Shown: positions 1 to 13,281 of the stretch, in pieces
Numbering within the stretch: the stretch's first letter is position 1
How the letters are laid out: each line of letters starts with the position of its first letter
Position numbers and translations under genes: made by a program
Source of the DNA: Candidatus Bathyarchaeia archaeon
GTDB lineage: Archaea > Thermoproteota > Bathyarchaeia > Hecatellales > Hecatellaceae
DNA: 64,000 nucleotides
Reading direction: 5' to 3'
Assembly: GCA_038883335.1 (NCBI GenBank)
Contig: JAVZMI010000003.1
Location: 1-64,000 of the forward strand
Notes under the pieces: generated by a model
The model's database searches: none
Seen by the model: only the letters and a program-made list of their open reading frames with translations
Told to the model about the DNA's origin: nothing

Positions 1-1410
1 AGCTTTCAATTCCCTTTGTTGGGATTTTCGTTCTGCATCCTGATCTTGAGCAATATTTCAAACCGACGGAAACAATACTTTCAATTCCCTTTGTTGGGAT
101 TTTCGTTCTGCATCGCAACTATACTGTTCGACACGATGGTTAATATTGTTCCGTCGGCTTTCAATTCCCTTTGTTGGGATTTTCGTTCTGCATCTCTTAT
201 ATGTTGTGCCTTTCGGCTCAGAGAAAACAACTTTCTTTCAATTCCCTTTGTTGGGATTTTCGTTCTGCATCAAAAATGCTTATCTAGACGGGGTTATTAC
301 TGGCAAAGAGCTCTTTCAATTCCCTTTGTTGGGATTTTCGTTCTGCATCATTTTAACATCCGCGAAATACATAGTTGCCCGCTCCTCGTCTTTCAATTCC
401 CTTTGTTGGGATTTTCGTTCTGCATCCTATTTATTACCGCACAAAACAAAAGGTGACTGAAAACGAGCTTTCAATTCCCTTTGTTGGGATTTTCGTTCTG
501 CATCTTTCGCAATGTACGTTTGAACCTCTTCGCTTAAACGGTCGCTTTCAATTCCCTTTGTTGGGATTTTCGTTCTGCATCGGAGATAAAAATGGATTTG
601 GATGAAGCCAGAAGTTATATACTTTCAATTCCCTTTGTTGGGATTTTCGTTCTGCATCCTCCATGCCTGCCTTTTCAAAAAGTTCCGCGATTTTTGCTTT
701 CAATTCCCTTTGTTGGGATTTTCGTTCTGCATCGCTTTTCGACCGTCTTCTGAGGGAGAATCTTGTTGTCTTTCAATTCCCTTTGTTGGGATTTTCGTTC
801 TGCATCGAAACGCACATATTCGCCCGCACGAGAAGGAACACCGATACTTTCAATTCCCTTTGTTGGGATTTTCGTTCTGCATCTATATGGGCCAGCGAAA
901 ACATGTTCAACAATGCTATAAGCTTTCAATTCCCTTTGTTGGGATTTTCGTTCTGCATCAGATGGAGTGGCGGCAGGAAATTTTAGGCGAATTTGTCTTT
1001 CAATTCCCTTTGTTGGGATTTTCGTTCTGCATCTCCCCCTGACTTTTCTGCGGCGGCAGTTCTAGGCTCACTTTCAATTCCCTTTGTTGGGATTTTCGTT
1101 CTGCATCTCTGTGGCAAACGGGGCGCTGACATATATGGTTCGCCCCCTTTCAATTCCCTTTGTTGGGATTTTCGTTCTGCATCCAGGTTTGTAATCAGTC
1201 CTGAAACTAATATGTGGGCGTCCTTTCAATTCCCTTTGTTGGGATTTTCGTTCTGCATCGCCTGTCAGCTTAATTCCTGTTTTGATTAAATCTTTGGACT
1301 TTCAATTCCCTTTGTTGGGATTTTCGTTCTGCATCATAAAGTCAGGATTGTTAGCTGTTGCTAGCAATCTTGTCTTTCAATTCCCTTTGTTGGGATTTTC
1401 GTTCTGCATC
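1..1410 (-). CRISPR. CRISPR array 1 (19 repeats, truncated by the window edge)
   Basis: There are nineteen identical 37-nt repeats, the first at 3-39 and the last at 1374-1410, separated by 18 unique spacers of about 36-43 nt. Read on the minus strand each repeat starts GATGCAGAACG and ends GGGAATTGAAAG. The terminal ATTGAAAG is the usual 8-nt 5' handle of many archaeal type I and type III crRNAs, so transcription is assigned to the minus strand and the leader to the right. Two bases of another spacer precede the first repeat, so the array probably continues to the left. No repeat shows a mismatch, which suggests an active or recently copied array. No cas gene flanks it here. The open frames that cross it are only translated repeats. 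Confidence 0.97.
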
Positions 1411-1587
1411 CAAACCCAAACGCGGCTTATCTCGCCCAGAGAGCCCTATATAAGGGCAGCCGCGAAAGGTACAACCGATTATTATGTAACCGCAAACCCC
1501 CTTATAAAGATAATCGAAAAAAACAGATACTCAGCCTTAAGAAGTAAAGATAAGTGTAAGTGTTGTCAATATTTTACTGTGATTAAC
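1411..1587 (-). promoter_or_regulatory. Leader and promoter of CRISPR array 1, shared with the sod upstream region
   Basis: This segment lies between the leader-proximal repeat (ending 1410) and the sod start codon. A strong, nearly palindromic TATA-like box (CCCTATATAAGGG, 1444-1456) sits about 40 bp from the first transcribed repeat. That is the right place for a minus-strand transcript starting just before the array. A second TATA-like element (CTTATAAAG, about 1501-1509) could serve sod on the plus strand. The assignment rests on position and composition only. Confidence 0.6.
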
Positions 1588-5198: not shown

Positions 5199-7088
5199 GT
5201 GCAAGAGATCTTGCAAGTTAGGCTAGCAGCCCTCCTTCACGACATCGGCAAACCCGAATGCTGGGCAAACCAGAAACCATGGTCACACCACATCTACTAC
5301 ACGGAGAAACTCCTCAACGAGACGGTCGGCGCTGAGGTTGCCTCTATCGCGATGAGACACCACAGTGGCTCCTCATATAATCTTGAAGATCGCCCTAAGA
5401 CGGATATTGAGAGAATTATCTGCCTCGCGGACAACATTGCCTCCGGAGCAGATAGGCCTGAGGAGACGATGGGCGCCGGAGGGAGACCTTCACTCCCAGT
5501 AAGATTGACCCATATTCTATCAGACGGTAGCAAGATCGTTAAGGAAACCACAGCACGGGACCTTTACCTCTTCCAAGAGCAGTTCAAACAGAGATTCAAA
5601 GGTTGCCTTCCAACAGATAAACTCTATGACTCTCTTTACGATTTCCTTTCCAAGTCACTATTAAGGGAGATTCCAGCCGACACCAGAAGCCCTGTGAACG
5701 ATGCCTCACTGTGGGATCACCTTAAATTGACGGCGGCTATAGCCAACTGCGCATGGAAGAGCGGAGGGTACCAGGGAGACGAACCTTCGAAGTATAAATT
5801 TGTCCTGATCTCAGCAGACGCAGACAGGGTCTCAGATTACATTAACGCATCGTCACGCCTACCCGACCTTGAGGCGGGTAGCCGCAAAGTCAAAGAAGCC
5901 ACGGAGGAGGCCGCCAAAACAGTCAAGGAGATCTTAGGCCCAGAGTGCCTTCTATTCCACGGTGGCGGTAGCCTCCTAGTGATCTCGCCCCCCAACGAAA
6001 GTCAGAGGGTCCTCCGAGAAGTGAAAAACAGGTTCGAGACGTCAACAAGAGGCATGCTCACGATGACGGTCTGCTCAACAGAGACAGATGGGGGCAAAAT
6101 TAAGCAGTATTTCGGAAGTGTGTGGGAGGAGGCCGTGAATAACCTCAGAGCTGAAAAGGGAGAGAGGGCTATGCCTATTCCTCCAGTTATCGAGGAGAAT
6201 ATTCCCTTATGCGATGTATGTAGAAAGATGCCAGCCGAGCACTTTGATGATAAGAAGGTGATACCTATAGATGCGTCGCCGAGACCTGAAGCCCTATGCT
6301 CCTTGTGCTGGGAGAAACGAATGACGGGTAAGGGAGTGAGCTTAGACGACATGAAGGATGGAAGGAATTTTGTCGCTGTGATAAAGGCTGACGGCGATGG
6401 TCTGGGCGAGGTTTTGAGCGGGAGGAGAGTGAAGCTATACCGTAAGGCTATGACGCCGTCGAGGCTATCGACGATAAGCGGTCTCCTCCACCAGACTTGC
6501 GAGATAACTCTTGTTAAGGAGATTAACTCCCTTGGCGGCGAGGCCATATTTGCAGGCGGAGATGATATACTTGCAGTAACACCTGGTATGAAAAGTCTCC
6601 ATGCGGCTAGAGCTATTGCGTCGAAGTTCGAAGAGGCGTTGGGGGGTGAAGCAACTCTATCTGCAGGTGTCGCGATCTTCCACTACAGGCTTCCAATATA
6701 TGTTGCCCTCGAGTCGGCAACTATACTCCTCAGAAAGGCCAAGCAAGTTGCTGGCAAGGCATCTATAGCCTTCCACTTTATCACTGAAGCAGGGGTTCTC
6801 GAAGCTGAGCTGGAGAAGTGCCGGGCGTATTCTTGGGTCGAAATCGGTAAGCTTCTCAGAGTTGTGGATTATCTGAGAAGGTGTAAACTTACATCAAGCC
6901 AAGTCAGACTTATAGCTGCCGCCTGTAAGAGGAACCGCGAGAATGCACAAACTGTAACTAAATACTTTATGGGTCGTGGACAGATCGAGTGGCATGAAGG
7001 GGAGCGGCTTCTAGCTTATATCAAGTCCGGCCTGTTTCATGATGCATTTCAGGTCTATAATGCTTTCCGAGGAGGTGAAGAGGTTTGA
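5199..7088 (+). CDS. cas10: Cas10 (Csm1-type large subunit of type III effector)
   Basis: Cas10 is the signalling subunit of type III CRISPR complexes; it makes cyclic oligoadenylates and, in many cases, cuts ssDNA. At 629 residues it has an N-terminal HD domain (LLHDIGKP, His14-Asp15; a further MRHHSG), two Palm-type halves, a Cys4 zinc site (CDVC near 338-341 and CSLC near 367-370) and an intact GGDD cyclase motif near 453-456 preceded by IKADGDGLG. Both HD and GGDD look functional. Start is GTG with AGAGG upstream. The stop overlaps the next gene by 4 nt, so the four effector genes form one operon. The length is below many Csm1 proteins (about 700-800). Confidence 0.94.
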   Translation: MQEILQVRLAALLHDIGKPECWANQKPWSHHIYYTEKLLNETVGAEVASIAMRHHSGSSYNLEDRPKTDIERIICLADNIASGADRPEETMGAGGRPSLPVRLTHILSDGSKIVKETTARDLYLFQEQFKQRFKGCLPTDKLYDSLYDFLSKSLLREIPADTRSPVNDASLWDHLKLTAAIANCAWKSGGYQGDEPSKYKFVLISADADRVSDYINASSRLPDLEAGSRKVKEATEEAAKTVKEILGPECLLFHGGGSLLVISPPNESQRVLREVKNRFETSTRGMLTMTVCSTETDGGKIKQYFGSVWEEAVNNLRAEKGERAMPIPPVIEENIPLCDVCRKMPAEHFDDKKVIPIDASPRPEALCSLCWEKRMTGKGVSLDDMKDGRNFVAVIKADGDGLGEVLSGRRVKLYRKAMTPSRLSTISGLLHQTCEITLVKEINSLGGEAIFAGGDDILAVTPGMKSLHAARAIASKFEEALGGEATLSAGVAIFHYRLPIYVALESATILLRKAKQVAGKASIAFHFITEAGVLEAELEKCRAYSWVEIGKLLRVVDYLRRCKLTSSQVRLIAAACKRNRENAQTVTKYFMGRGQIEWHEGERLLAYIKSGLFHDAFQVYNAFRGGEEV

Positions 7089-7609
7089 GCGGAGAAGTGG
7101 GTTTGAAGCGTGAGGGGGAGGATCTGGCTAAGCTAGCTGTGAGTTGTAACATTGGGGCTAAGCAGTTACGAACCCTCTATGATACGGCGAGAACCCGTGA
7201 CAAGCCTATGCTAGAAGCCTATGTCCAGTATCAGATACCGCGGATATCGGGCTACCTAGAGTTTGGAGAAAAGATGCTACAGCTTATCGGCAGATACGAG
7301 AAGATGCAGGTAGTCACTATACTGCAGTATGCAAACATGCTCTATGACTATTATAGGTTGAAAAGATGGAAAGCCCTTGAACCAATAATTGGGGAGACAA
7401 TAAAACGTACCACTCAACAGTATGGGTACATAGGTGTTGAGATTCGGATGGAGCGAGACACCCCTGAAGTGTTTGTGATGCTCCGCGACTTCCGTGGAAA
7501 CCCGCGACAACTCGCGGAAGAGTTGAGCGCTAGGATAAAGCAGAATATCACTGAAATACGGAATATACCTGTCAAGATATGGATTAGAACCCAAGTTGAA
7601 AGGAGGTGA
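7085..7609 (+). CDS. csm2: Csm2-like small subunit (Cas11)
   Basis: This 174-residue, helix-rich protein sits where the small subunit belongs, directly after cas10. Its middle (LRTLYDTARTRDKPMLEAY and the following YLEFGEKMLQLIGRYEK) has the amphipathic helical pattern of Csm2. Csm2 proteins are usually 120-150 residues, and here a C-terminal extension of about 50 residues (VEIRMERDTPEVF onward) follows. The start is TTG at 7085 inside the cas10 stop, supported by a strong GGAGGTGA 6 nt upstream. It would line the crRNA-target duplex as repeated copies. Family membership is by position and fold pattern rather than a diagnostic motif. Confidence 0.72.
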   Translation: MSGEVGLKREGEDLAKLAVSCNIGAKQLRTLYDTARTRDKPMLEAYVQYQIPRISGYLEFGEKMLQLIGRYEKMQVVTILQYANMLYDYYRLKRWKALEPIIGETIKRTTQQYGYIGVEIRMERDTPEVFVMLRDFRGNPRQLAEELSARIKQNITEIRNIPVKIWIRTQVERR

Positions 7610-7614
7610 GAAAT

Positions 7615-8325
7615 ATGGTTTTTGAGAAGCTCGAGAAGAGAACCATTTTCAGTGGGGTGATAGAGACTTTGACACCTCTGCATATAGGTTCAGGGAAGCC
7701 TGAGGTTGATATAGGCGCCGCTGATATGCCGATCTTGGTGGATACGGAAGGGCAGCCCTACATTCCCGGTTCATCTCTCAAAGGCCGCATTAGGGCCGAG
7801 GCCGAGAAGATAGCTCGGAAAGAGGGGAAAGAGGTCTGTAATCCGCCTGATGTCAAGAATATGTGTGGCACACTAAAAAAAGAACCTAAAGATTTCTGTA
7901 TCGCCTGTAGGATATTCGGCACCGCGGGGGAAGTCTCAGTAGCAAGCAAGGTAAAGTTTAGAGATGCATACCCTACCAAGAAGATAGAAAAATTCCTGAC
8001 ACGGACAGGGACGGCTATAGACAGAGAGAAAGGTAGCGTAGCTCGAAGTGCTCTATACTCTATCGAGGCGGTTCCCGCAGGATCGACTTTCAATCTTGAG
8101 ATAGTGGCCGAGAATCTAACCGATGAGGAGCTGAAGCTACTGTTGGCAGCTATGAAGTCGATGGAGGACTCAGCCTTAGGCGGCTCTTCCACACGAGGGT
8201 TCGGCAAGGTTAGACTGAACTTTGACAAAGTCTATACCCGGACTGCCAAATACTACTTAGGCGAGGAAGAGGAGGATGTTCTTGAAGGAGCAGATCTGGA
8301 ACGCTGGCTGAAGGAGAAGAGGTAG
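7615..8325 (+). CDS. csm3: Csm3-like Cas7 RAMP (backbone subunit)
   Basis: The 236-residue RAMP protein carries the features of Csm3: LTPLHIGSGKPEVDIG at the N terminus, YIPGSSLKGRIRAEAE, a Cys-rich insertion (CGTLKKEPKDFCIACRIFG) and a C-terminal glycine-rich loop LGGSSTRGFGKV near 188-199. In type III complexes Csm3 binds the crRNA as a filament and cuts target RNA with a conserved Asp; candidates are the Asp residues in VDIGAAD. The start is ATG 7615, because GGAGGTGA at 7602-7609 is its Shine-Dalgarno; the upstream GTG at 7606 lies inside that site. Only one Csm3-type gene is present. Confidence 0.9.
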   Translation: MVFEKLEKRTIFSGVIETLTPLHIGSGKPEVDIGAADMPILVDTEGQPYIPGSSLKGRIRAEAEKIARKEGKEVCNPPDVKNMCGTLKKEPKDFCIACRIFGTAGEVSVASKVKFRDAYPTKKIEKFLTRTGTAIDREKGSVARSALYSIEAVPAGSTFNLEIVAENLTDEELKLLLAAMKSMEDSALGGSSTRGFGKVRLNFDKVYTRTAKYYLGEEEEDVLEGADLERWLKEKR

Positions 8326-9480
8326 TTGGGTTCAGTGATCTGCTATCGAGTTTGTGGAACATTGGTAGCTAAGACGCCCCTCCATATCGGCTCGGGGAAG
8401 AGGGCGGGGGTGATAAAGCATACTACCCCATATATACCTGGCTCCTTCCTTAGAGGTGCCTTCGGTATCTCTCTCCTCAAAGTTGCATGTAAACTAGATG
8501 AACCCTTGGTAAACCATGAGAAGTGCAAGTATCTCGACGACTGCCTCTATACTTACTTATATGGTGATGACTTCAGCAAATCTGCAAACATCCTCTTCCG
8601 CTATGCCTACCCTCTCCATATCAAGTGTGGTGGTGTCTACCTACCAGCTAAGAGGACAGTTTTCAGATGTGAAAACCGACAATGTGGCATGACCTATGAC
8701 ACTTTCAAGCCGCCTCTTGAGTGCGTGAAGTGTGGGAAGAAGGTAAAGCCTTACACGGGTTATGTTTGCTCCGGCTGTGGTGAGATGGAGCCACATCCTA
8801 CACCTGTTACAAGGATTATATCAACTGCCATCGATCGGGGCCGCTTCTCTGCGGCTACTGTGGGTGGTAGGGAGGAGAAAGGTACGCTTAGGACACTGGA
8901 GGTCATTGATCGAGGTGCCGAGTTCCGGTTGGAAGTGATTCTCTTTGAGGAGTGTCGAGAGTATCTTGAGAAGATAAAGAGCCTCTTGGCGAGGGGGCTG
9001 ACTGACGAGGGGGTGGGGGGCGAGAAATCTAGCGGTCTGGGAAAAGTCACCGTGGAGAATCTGACGATTACAGAGGTCACTTCAGAGGATATACGTCGGC
9101 GAGCGAGGGAGATAGATCCAGCTGACTTCACAGTCTGGCTTGTCTCTCCGATGGTTCTGCGGGAAGGTGAGAGCACTATTGATGCCTCGGCGCTATTGGA
9201 GAATGCTCGAAGGGCTTATACCCGATGTTTCAAGGATGGAAAGCCAAGTCTACCTGAAGTCACAATAGCTGAGCAGCAGCTGGTTTATGGCACCTTTAGT
9301 GGGTGGTCTCTTAGGGATGAGAGACGTCGTCGAGTTGAGCCAATGCTGGCTGCTGGGTCAACCTTAAGGTTCCAGTCTGATAGCCGAGATGAGAAGCTCG
9401 CTCTGGGTCTTGCGGCCCTAGAGGTGAATGCTGTAGGAGCCTATAAGCCCCATGGATGTGGCCAGATAAAGATAGGTTGA
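8326..9480 (+). CDS. Csx10-like RAMP protein with zinc-ribbon insertion
   Basis: This 384-residue protein has an N-terminal RAMP domain (AKTPLHIGSGKR, YIPGSFLRGAFG), a central Cys-rich insertion with Cys pairs between residues about 115 and 151, a TRIISTAIDRGRFSAAT segment, a glycine-rich loop (GGEKSSGLGKV) and a second C-terminal domain ending GAYKPHGCGQI. That order resembles Csx10, the Cas5-type subunit of type III-D complexes, more than Csm4 or Csm5. It starts with TTG immediately after the csm3 stop, with GGAGAAGAGG upstream; GTG at 8338 is an alternative. As the last gene of the operon it would cap the crRNA 5' handle. No separate Csm5 follows. Confidence 0.75.
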   Translation: MGSVICYRVCGTLVAKTPLHIGSGKRAGVIKHTTPYIPGSFLRGAFGISLLKVACKLDEPLVNHEKCKYLDDCLYTYLYGDDFSKSANILFRYAYPLHIKCGGVYLPAKRTVFRCENRQCGMTYDTFKPPLECVKCGKKVKPYTGYVCSGCGEMEPHPTPVTRIISTAIDRGRFSAATVGGREEKGTLRTLEVIDRGAEFRLEVILFEECREYLEKIKSLLARGLTDEGVGGEKSSGLGKVTVENLTITEVTSEDIRRRAREIDPADFTVWLVSPMVLREGESTIDASALLENARRAYTRCFKDGKPSLPEVTIAEQQLVYGTFSGWSLRDERRRRVEPMLAAGSTLRFQSDSRDEKLALGLAALEVNAVGAYKPHGCGQIKIG

Positions 9481-9765: not shown

Positions 9766-11106
9766 GTTTCAATGACTCCAATGAGGATGAGAAGACAGAA
9801 ACCCATTGGGCTAGAGACGAAATCGATGAGACTTTTCTAAAAGTTTCAATGACTCCAATGAGGATGAGAAGACAGAAACCTGTGGGCGTCGGACAGCCAG
9901 GCCAGATATTCGCCGTTAAAGTTTCAATGACTCCAATGAGGATGAGAAGACAGAAACTTTAATATTTGTTTAGCCTTGAATACGTGTTGGTCCGCGAGTT
10001 TCAATGACTCCAATGAGGATGAGAAGACAGAAACTCCGGCAACATTTCGCTCAGCCGCAAATCGCAAAAAATAAGTTTCAATGACTCCAATGAGGATGAG
10101 AAGACAGAAACGTCCCGAGGCGAACATGTGGGCCAGCGAAGCCATGTTGTTTCAATGACTCCAATGAGGATGAGAAGACAGAAACTATGTTGCACATGTT
10201 TAAAATTTCTCCAAGATAATGTTTTTAGTTTCAATGACTCCAATGAGGATGAGAAGACAGAAACGCTAAAACGCGGTCTCCGTCAGTCTTAATTCGCCTA
10301 ACAGTTTCAATGACTCCAATGAGGATGAGAAGACAGAAACTTTAATTTTTGGTTTAATATTTCTTTCGCCTTGGCCACGTGTGTTTCAATGACTCCAATG
10401 AGGATGAGAAGACAGAAACACTTCCATGCGGGTTAGTTTTCGCGAAAGCTCGTTTTCACAGTTTCAATGACTCCAATGAGGATGAGAAGACAGAAACTGG
10501 GCGTAGAGCACTTCGCCCTGTGTTTTTTGCGGTGGGTTTCAATGACTCCAATGAGGATGAGAAGACAGAAACTCATCCATCCACTGCCCCCACTGCACCA
10601 CGCCAGCAGGGCAGTTTCAATGACTCCAATGAGGATGAGAAGACAGAAACTTTAATATTTGTTTCGCCTTGGCCACATAGTCATCCGTTTCAATGACTCC
10701 AATGAGGATGAGAAGACAGAAACGCAGAAAATATTACAACATCACCCAACCAAATTCTAAGGTTTCAATGACTCCAATGAGGATGAGAAGACAGAAACTC
10801 GCAATAGCGTTCGTCTGGTTCAGAGGCTAAAAGGAGACAAGTTTCAATGACTCCAATGAGGATGAGAAGACAGAAACCACTCCACCTCTCAACGTTCGCA
10901 GAACGTTGAGCTAAAGTTTCAATGACTCCAATGAGGATGAGAAGACAGAAACGTTTTTATTTTCAGCATTATTTCCATTTTTTTTTTCTTTCGTTTCAAT
11001 GACTCCAATGAGGATGAGAAGACAGAAACGCGAAATATCTCCTCCGTATCGGCGCCCCGCACTTTGAAAGTTTCAATGACTCCAATGAGGATGAGAAGAC
11101 AGAAAC
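9766..11106 (-). CRISPR. CRISPR array 2 (18 repeats)
   Basis: Eighteen identical 37-nt repeats run from 9766-9802 to 11070-11106, with 17 spacers of about 36-43 nt. On the minus strand the repeat begins GTTTCTGTCTTCTC and ends GTCATTGAAAC, so it has short inverted ends (GTTTC/GAAAC) and the ATTGAAAC crRNA handle. The repeat shares almost nothing with array 1 outside the ATTGAAA handle. Transcription is assigned to the minus strand, towards the convergent cas operon. Several spacers are related to each other (see findings). One spacer (10878-10915) contains a perfect 10-bp hairpin. Confidence 0.97.
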
Positions 11107-11261
11107 CTTGAAGCTGTGAGCAGCATCTCGAAATGTCGCTGACCGCGAGGAGAGACCCCATGTCAATAGTAAAACCGATCTCATAGCTTACCCGTTAATA
11201 AAAAGAAAAGATACGGAAGCCATAGTTCAACGGCGTTTCGAGCCAAGTATTCTCACAACCC
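11107..11261 (-). promoter_or_regulatory. Leader of CRISPR array 2
   Basis: This segment lies next to the leader-proximal repeat. An A/T-rich element (TAATAAAAAG on the plus strand near 11196-11205, TTTTTATTA on the minus strand) about 90 bp from the array is a candidate promoter. The 40 bp nearest the array are not A/T-rich and could be an old spacer without a flanking repeat. The assignment is positional. Confidence 0.45.
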
Positions 11262-11609
11262 TCATTTCTTATTCAACGACCCTTCCAGCTTCTCTATTTC
11301 ACCCTTCAATTTGCCAATCATCTTCTCGGCATATTTCACATTCACAGCCATATCTTTATATGGGAACCACCTTAACCGTTCACCAAAAATCACCGACGCA
11401 AAAGCCTCACTAACAACATCCGCACATTCGTGGTTCGAGTAAAACCCTATGCTTCGACCAAAATTGTCATGATCCAAACCCAACGTGTGCAAAAACTCGT
11501 GAACCAACGTGAGCTTCGTATGCCTCTGGTTTAGGCGTTTACTAATGTATATCTCGTTCTCTGTTGTTTGTTCACCGAAAGTGTCATCCTCAAAATCTTT
11601 TAGTTTCAC
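11262..11609 (-). CDS. Metzincin-like zinc peptidase, possibly N-terminally frameshifted
   Basis: The 115-residue product carries the full metzincin signature HExxHxxGxxH as HEFLHTLGLDH, followed by a helix with YSNHECADVVSEAFASVIFGE and a charged C-terminal helix. Small peptidases of this sort occur in mobile elements, sometimes as ImmA-type regulators. The GTG start has no clear ribosome site. Upstream, an ATG at 11656-11658 begins MKDFF in a different frame, and the two frames meet in a run of eight T. A one-base slip there would give a longer protein with residues RCLSKLEKLEVK before the present start. The gene lies between array 2 and the broken integrase. Confidence 0.65.
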   Translation of the reverse strand: MKLKDFEDDTFGEQTTENEIYISKRLNQRHTKLTLVHEFLHTLGLDHDNFGRSIGFYSNHECADVVSEAFASVIFGERLRWFPYKDMAVNVKYAEKMIGKLKGEIEKLEGSLNKK

Positions 11610-12035: not shown

Positions 12036-13281
12036 CTAGGGAGCTACTTCGGATGTGGGAGGAGGCTGAGAGGAGGAAGAAAGCTCGGAAACCTTCCGCG
12101 CAAGAAACCTTCTAACCTCCACATCCCCCATCAGCAAGTCAATTATCCTATCCGCTCTGGCTCTATCCTCCTCCAGCCTCACCGCCACGCTCACATCCAA
12201 GACCATGCTGCAGGCTGAGCAGAACTGCGCCTCAGGACCGCCCCCTGCCTACACCGCGGACACACAGTCGATACGAGTGCTGCCTTCACTCTATCCTCTT
12301 GACCCTTTACTATTCCATGAGCCCTCAGCAGCGCACCATCAACGTCCCTCCCTGAGAGGCGAACATAGACTGAGGGCATATCTGAGCCATGAACCCAGCC
12401 CAGCAGCTCCTTCATCTGAGCCTCCGTGAGCATGGCTGCCAGCCCAGTCGCCCTCGTATGCCTCAAAAGGTGCGAGTACACTCGCTTATTCAGACCAGCC
12501 CTCCTAGCGAGCCTGCGGAGCAGAGCCCTAATCCCACTATAGCTCAAAGGCTCATACCTGCCCACAGAGCCTAAACCAACCCATAAAGGCGCATTCGGGT
12601 CTCCTCTCAGGGTGTGGATGCTGAGCCACGACGCCAACGCGGGCACAGCCGCTATCACCCTAACCCTTCTGGGCCAGTCTTACCGTCCACGATGAGCACA
12701 GCCCCATACTGGTCGAACCACACATTGAGTACGAGAAGTGATAGGGTCTCACCTATCCTGCAACCCGACTAGTAATGTGTGAGAATAAGGGCTCTATCCC
12801 GCGGGTTCTCAGCAGCCTCCACCAGCCCCCTCAACCCCTCCGCCGTGAGCAACGCCTCAGGCAGCAGCCGCCTCCTCCTAAGCGTAGCCCTTATCCACTT
12901 GACCTCCTCCGGATACTCGTACTCCTCCTCGTCGCAGCCCCTCAGCCACTGGTAGAACTTTTTGAGGATTATCTTATAGTCGTGCTTCGTATGCTCCGTA
13001 TAACCTCCAGAGTTCCCCCGGCTCACCAGCCTTTCCACACCCGCCCTCCCAAGCTGCTTGAAGGGCACCCCAACCATCCTAGCCAGCACGGTGAGGTGGT
13101 TGATGTATTTGGTTGCTCTGGGCTTGCTGACTCCTCTGGACAGCAGGTGCTCAACCAGCCCCATAATCTCAGCCTTATTCTCCTGGCAGATGTCCGCCGC
13201 CGACTGGAGACGCTTTAAGGCGCTGTTAAAGGCTTGGTCATGTGGGTAGATCCCCAGCCGGCTCATATGCTTGGCACCCAT
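12036..13281 (-). pseudogene. Tyrosine recombinase (integrase) relic with zinc ribbon
   Basis: The relic encodes an archaeal XerC/phage-type integrase in pieces. The N-terminal 170 residues (MGAKHMSRLGIYPHDQAF onward) contain a SAM-like core-binding domain and stop at TAG (12769-12771), just before SGCRIGETLSL, which holds the first catalytic Arg. A frameshift after DGKTG (about 12670) leads to the next piece with HLLRHTRATGLA, LLGWVHGSDMPSVYVRLSG (catalytic His/Arg and Tyr) and the first zinc-ribbon pair CPRC. A second frameshift in a G run (12235-12248) separates the second pair CSAC and the tail. All catalytic motifs survive across frames, so decay or sequencing error is recent. The start lies 34 bp from the tRNA-Gly CCA end. 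Confidence 0.88.

Follow-up and report, generated by a model that had tools for sequence, protein, structure and literature searches.

Three spacers of a single CRISPR array in a Candidatus Bathyarchaeia archaeon are variants of one another, and the question raised by this locus is how variants of one short sequence came to be stored three times. The locus lies in a stretch of 64,000 nucleotides (assembly GCA_038883335.1, contig JAVZMI010000003.1, positions 1 to 64,000), which is referred to here in its entirety as the window. Spacers from all arrays found in the organism's own genome (1.22 Mb, 18 contigs) were collected, giving 59 spacers, 58 of them distinct, and families were found by comparing these spacers at both the DNA and the codon level. 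The three spacers most likely record the same codons of one foreign gene, captured separately and at different times from diverged relatives of one mobile element, and form part of a wider pattern that extends across the genome.

Arrays and cas genes

Array 2 (9766-11106, minus strand) consists of 18 perfect 37-nt repeats, all identical, which alternate with 17 unique spacers of 36-42 nt. Array 1 (3-1410, minus strand) has 19 repeats with the minus-strand end ATTGAAAG and is cut by the contig start; an array on contig C17 (69-949) has this repeat too and may continue array 1. Further arrays with an array 1-type repeat are found on C1 (two), C5 and C10 (two). These five are mini-arrays of 1-4 spacers each (C1:82463-82661, C1:126402-126749, C5:17308-17420, C10:30265-30536 and C10:41020-41212), and their leaders of about 110-120 nt are nearly identical, with unrelated sequence upstream, as though copies of one leader-repeat module had been placed at several sites. 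The sequence at 1411-1530 (minus strand) resembles the mini-array leaders by eye, which places the newest spacers of array 1 at its right end. The array 2 repeat ends in ATTGAAAC on the minus strand, which by analogy with other archaeal repeats we take to indicate a minus-strand crRNA and a leader at the right end. Judging by the repeat end ATTGAAA(C/G), the crRNAs of both arrays are predicted to derive from the minus strand, and the position of the array 1 leader agrees.

Array 2 is adjoined by type III genes (5199-9480, plus strand). These encode a Csm1/Cmr2-like Cas10 with HD (LLHDIGKP) and GGDD motifs (5199-7088), a 174-aa protein at the position of the small subunit with no convincing family match (7085-7609), a Cas7-type RAMP protein of the Csx7/Csm3 kind (7606-8325) and a Csx10/Csm4-like RAMP protein (8326-9480). 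Beyond the array, two adjacent frames at 12191-13281 each resemble part of a XerA-type tyrosine recombinase and are perhaps one broken gene. Elsewhere in the genome, C2 carries a type I locus with cas3 and a cas6 split over two frames, C4 carries cas4-cas1-cas2 and C16 a second cas1 (10461-11306), beside which a 488-aa protein but no cas2 or array was noticed. Both Cas1 proteins (377 and 281 aa) match Cas1 models only, and no reverse transcriptase of the kind found in RT-Cas1 systems was noticed beside cas1 in the open reading frame listings. Because cas4-cas1-cas2 is encoded, the Cas1 proteins look ordinary and related spacers occur in both strand senses, capture from DNA is likely.

Three related spacers in array 2

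The first family (F1) comprises spacers a2_3 (9958-9997, 40 nt), a2_8 (10341-10382, 42 nt) and a2_12 (10651-10686, 36 nt). On the minus strand these read ADQHVFKAKQIL with the core DQHVFKAKQIL, HVAKAKEILNQKL and DDYVAKAKQIL, respectively. A preliminary description had reported their similarity from the letters of the window, and its coordinates proved exact: 21-30 bases align with 83-96% identity, the best ungapped local matches being 25/26 for a2_8 and a2_12, 25/30 for a2_3 and a2_8, and 20/21 for a2_3 and a2_12. The corresponding scores of 24, 20 and 19 exceed 14, the maximum obtained when the 35 window spacers were mononucleotide-shuffled 60 times. They also exceed the scores in 40 shuffles of all 59 spacers, of which one set reached 17 and the other 39 did not go above 14.

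The same description had proposed a single open frame on the minus strand. In the common register this frame alone, out of six, is open throughout the three spacers; the remaining five are each interrupted by a stop in at least one of them. The synonymous third-position changes noted earlier (GTA/GTG and GCT/GCG) are genuine, and GAC/GAT can be added to them. Between a2_3 and a2_12 there are three synonymous and three non-synonymous codon differences; in the pair with the highest DNA identity within the family, a2_8 and a2_12, differences are not concentrated at third positions. The statement that the flanks differ holds insofar as they have diverged, but they are not unrelated, since the upstream parts of a2_3 and a2_12 still read DQH and DDY and are thus diverged homologues. 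The boundaries of the homologous spacers are distinct. While a2_3 and a2_12 share an end base on the ATATTAAA side, a2_8 extends 12 nt beyond it.

Duplication of a spacer inside array 2 followed by mutation is a very improbable origin for this family. Exact duplication does occur in the genome, where spacers 2 and 11 of the C17 array (C17:182-220 and 874-912) are identical, a true duplication within one array that is unlike the F1 variants. Against it stand the differing lengths and ends of the F1 spacers and the fact that all 18 repeats of array 2 are identical, yet the spacers between them differ by 4-17% over the aligned core. Alternatively, the three spacers could derive from internal repeats or paralogous genes of one element met in one or a few infections. 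The lysine-rich and possibly helical character of the motif would suit such an origin, as would the end base shared by a2_3 and a2_12 and the common strand sense of all three spacers. Both alternatives also have to be set against the related spacers found elsewhere in the genome.

Further spacer families in the genome

A second triad (F2), which the preliminary description does not mention, spans both arrays. Spacers a1_16 (1184-1222), a1_12 (884-922) and a2_5 (10112-10148) tile one composite, with the frame read on the plus strand in each case; a1_12 reads IWASENMFNNAI, a2_5 reads PEANMWASEAM antisense to the predicted crRNA, and the composite ends in (E)(A/N)MFNNAI. The DNA score of a1_12 against a2_5 is 17. 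In the third family (F3), a1_11 (807-846, minus strand) reads IGVPSRAGEYVRF and is a synonymous variant of the spacer at C10:30460-30498. The two share 37 of 39 aligned bases, and both differences are synonymous in the IGVPSRAGEYVRF frame, which is the best frame. A fourth family (F4, PPQKSQG/PPQKTQG) is probable and pairs a1_14 (1034-1070, minus strand), which reads SLELPPQKSQG, with a2_10 (10498-10535, minus strand), which reads PPQKTQGEVLYA.

Two more pairs are tentative. One (F5, CGL(L/V)F(V/A)KA) joins a2_9 (10420-10460, plus strand), which reads CGLVFAKA, to a spacer of the C1:126402-126749 mini-array. The other (F6, SLSRK(A/S)Q(H/K)I) consists of a1_3 (195-234, minus strand), reading FSLSRKAQHI, and a2_4 (10035-10074, plus strand), reading ISLSRKSQKI, with opposite crRNA sense. 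Overall, at least ten and up to fourteen of the 58 distinct spacers belong to variant families, which extend over arrays 1 and 2, whose repeats differ, and a mini-array located on another contig. Composite peptides assembled from the spacer readings include SLELPPQKSQGEVLYA.

Array duplication cannot explain these families, because variants also occur in arrays whose repeat differs and in a mini-array located on a separate contig. Members of F2, F3 and F4 are likewise found in different arrays or under different repeats. The internal-repeat origin leaves the second and third families unexplained, as these vary at synonymous sites across arrays, and it is improbable. Separate acquisition from homologous genes, which the preliminary description had preferred to duplication, is instead well supported, if indirectly, by the differing boundaries, the shared open frame and the cross-array families.

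The families were also evaluated against shuffled controls by a score that combines codon and DNA similarity, on which the eight top-ranking real pairs each reach at least 47. The best single shuffled pair reaches 45 in 41 mononucleotide sets and 51 in 38 dinucleotide sets, while the fourth-best shuffled pair is at most 40 among the 15 best of the 41 mononucleotide sets and at most 38 among the six best of the 38 dinucleotide sets. A lone pair at 47 is therefore not decisive, while a group of eight is. Third codon positions carry 16 of 22 differences, but pairs picked likewise from shuffled sets already show 56%, and third-position enrichment was dropped as strong, independent evidence after this calibration. 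In three related species, arrays with related repeats supplied 29 spacers for comparison; the best mutual score among these was 10 and no family appeared, so the redundancy is a property of this genome and not of the method. Separately, spacer 10 of the C17 array and the window spacer at 427-467 overlap at their ends by 15 bases, 14 of them identical; this is within chance level and fits adjacent captures at the end of one gene and the start of the next.

Search for protospacers

Pattern and protein searches of viral contigs, one genome collection, phages and plasmids found no protospacer, with queries of 13-21 residues that have little power. None was found in 257 genomes of the class and 398 of the phylum, where tblastn queries of this length hardly reach significance. 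Owing to this low power, the negative results mean only that no close relative is present in the searched collections. A search of the organism's own genome with the window spacers and those of the other arrays returned array sites only, plus weak matches with an E value of 0.68. Joined motifs used as a query found no relative, and no consistent PAM was seen on inspection of the overlapping related spacers. Since no protospacer was found, we infer the coding origin of the spacers from the spacers themselves.

Several candidate matches were rejected. In viral contigs, the F1, F2 and F3 motifs written as degenerate codon patterns had no match or occurred in unrelated contexts only; examples are an unrelated 263-aa frame containing MWASEAMF and an unrelated 147-aa protein containing VAKAKEIL. 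A genome-wide pattern scan gave four matches, all in unrelated bacteria. When the 35 window spacers were compared with phages by BLAST, three marginal matches appeared (E about 7), and a peptide match in the PDB was to a designed repeat protein and is due to chance. A match to a1_11 on C10 was rejected as a protospacer, as it is the spacer within the mini-array. The region of C10 at about 13.4-30.0 kb is likely a head-tail provirus, having terminase-, portal- and tape-measure-like genes by eye; it stops just ahead of the mini-array, beyond which lies a gene similar to that for host ribosomal protein S6e. In this provirus no target of the spacer motifs was found above the reversed-sequence control. 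The target most likely occurs in metagenomes.

Size and nature of the sampled element

The redundancy of the spacers permits an estimate of the size of the sequence from which they were drawn. Assuming that 58 spacers of about 40 nt are drawn uniformly and that an overlap is at least 20 nt, six to nine overlapping pairs put the target space at about 7.5-11 kb (Poisson limits about 4-31 kb), and seven pairs put it at 9.7 kb (4.7-24). The sampled sequence is thus about 5-25 kb if sampling is uniform; hotspots would make the true target larger and undetected diverged pairs would make it smaller. The expected number of same-strand triads on one site is 0.13 at 10 kb and 0.03 at 20 kb. Because two triads are present against the 0.13 expected at 10 kb, some sites also appear to be favoured or retained.

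Preferential capture at a hotspot, or strong selection for a handful of essential sites, acting on a large and diverse set of elements could replace the small target altogether. The two single-site triads exceed the uniform expectation for a genome above about 20 kb and would be accommodated in this way, but the existence of at least four separate families points to a small sampled space too, and a large target of this kind is rather unlikely. A sub-case of separate acquisition is priming, in which an old, mismatched spacer steered capture to an escaping element. The cas3-cas6 type I locus and the cas4-cas1-cas2 module are present, and priming fits repeated sampling of one family. However, priming favours capture near the primed site and not at that site itself, and we regard a primed origin as doubtful.

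Under separate acquisition from diverged relatives, the source would most likely be a virus, and a small virus or plasmid family would have been sampled at few positions. The captures would have been made at different times and into arrays whose repeats differ, and a store of variants would allow the target to be recognized even as its gene drifts. The families suggest that the host came under repeated attack from related, drifting members of a single virus or plasmid family. By strand, the crRNAs of F1, F3 and F4 would be in the sense of the reading frame and those of F2 antisense. Sense crRNAs cannot pair with the mRNA; therefore, if the F1 frame is right, F1 would act via DNA recognition (type I) or not at all, even though its array adjoins type III genes.

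A broader and more speculative reading, possible though short of being favoured, is that most of the memory stored here is a time series against one small, undescribed family of archaeal viruses or plasmids of about 5-25 kb, with certain coding sites recaptured at each drift. If so, the arrays keep ordered allelic variants of viral genes that could be used to reconstruct evolution, and the spacers could serve to fish the virus from metagenomes. Were the target identified, the succession of variants along the arrays would trace viral gene change under CRISPR pressure.

Comparison with known systems

In complete genomes of Sulfolobus islandicus, 14 of 552 spacers (2.5%) are common to different repeat types, allowing two mismatches, and the sharing was attributed to separate uptake from the same loci (PMC6858448; Medvedeva et al., 2019). 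The present genome is similar in that the same viral or plasmid locus appears to have been taken up by arrays with different repeats. The S. islandicus comparison allowed at most two mismatches plus end gaps and the variants described here are more diverged; in addition, and unlike in S. islandicus, a single array here stores three variants of one site.

Strains of S. islandicus also target many contemporary SSV and SIRV viruses with multiple spacers, the older of which are more mismatched (PMC6452263). Multiple spacers per virus are a shared feature, but there the viruses are known, whereas here the target is deduced from the spacers. The three-spacer mini-array on C10, which lies beside the likely head-tail provirus and includes a variant of a spacer from array 1, is reminiscent of virus-borne mini-CRISPR arrays (PMC6858448), including those of Bathyarchaeia viruses (PMC10848311). 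Unlike those, near-identical leaders also occur at four other sites whose surroundings, without a close search, were not found to be viral, and the mini-arrays may therefore be a host feature.

Spacer redundancy is usually seen against known viruses; here redundancy alone, read via codons, reveals the element, and it yields both protein fragments and a size estimate by recapture. Separate uptake of one locus is already known, and what is unusual is its extent in one genome: a single array of 17 spacers carries three diverged variants of the same site, and families account for no fewer than ten of the 58 distinct spacers.
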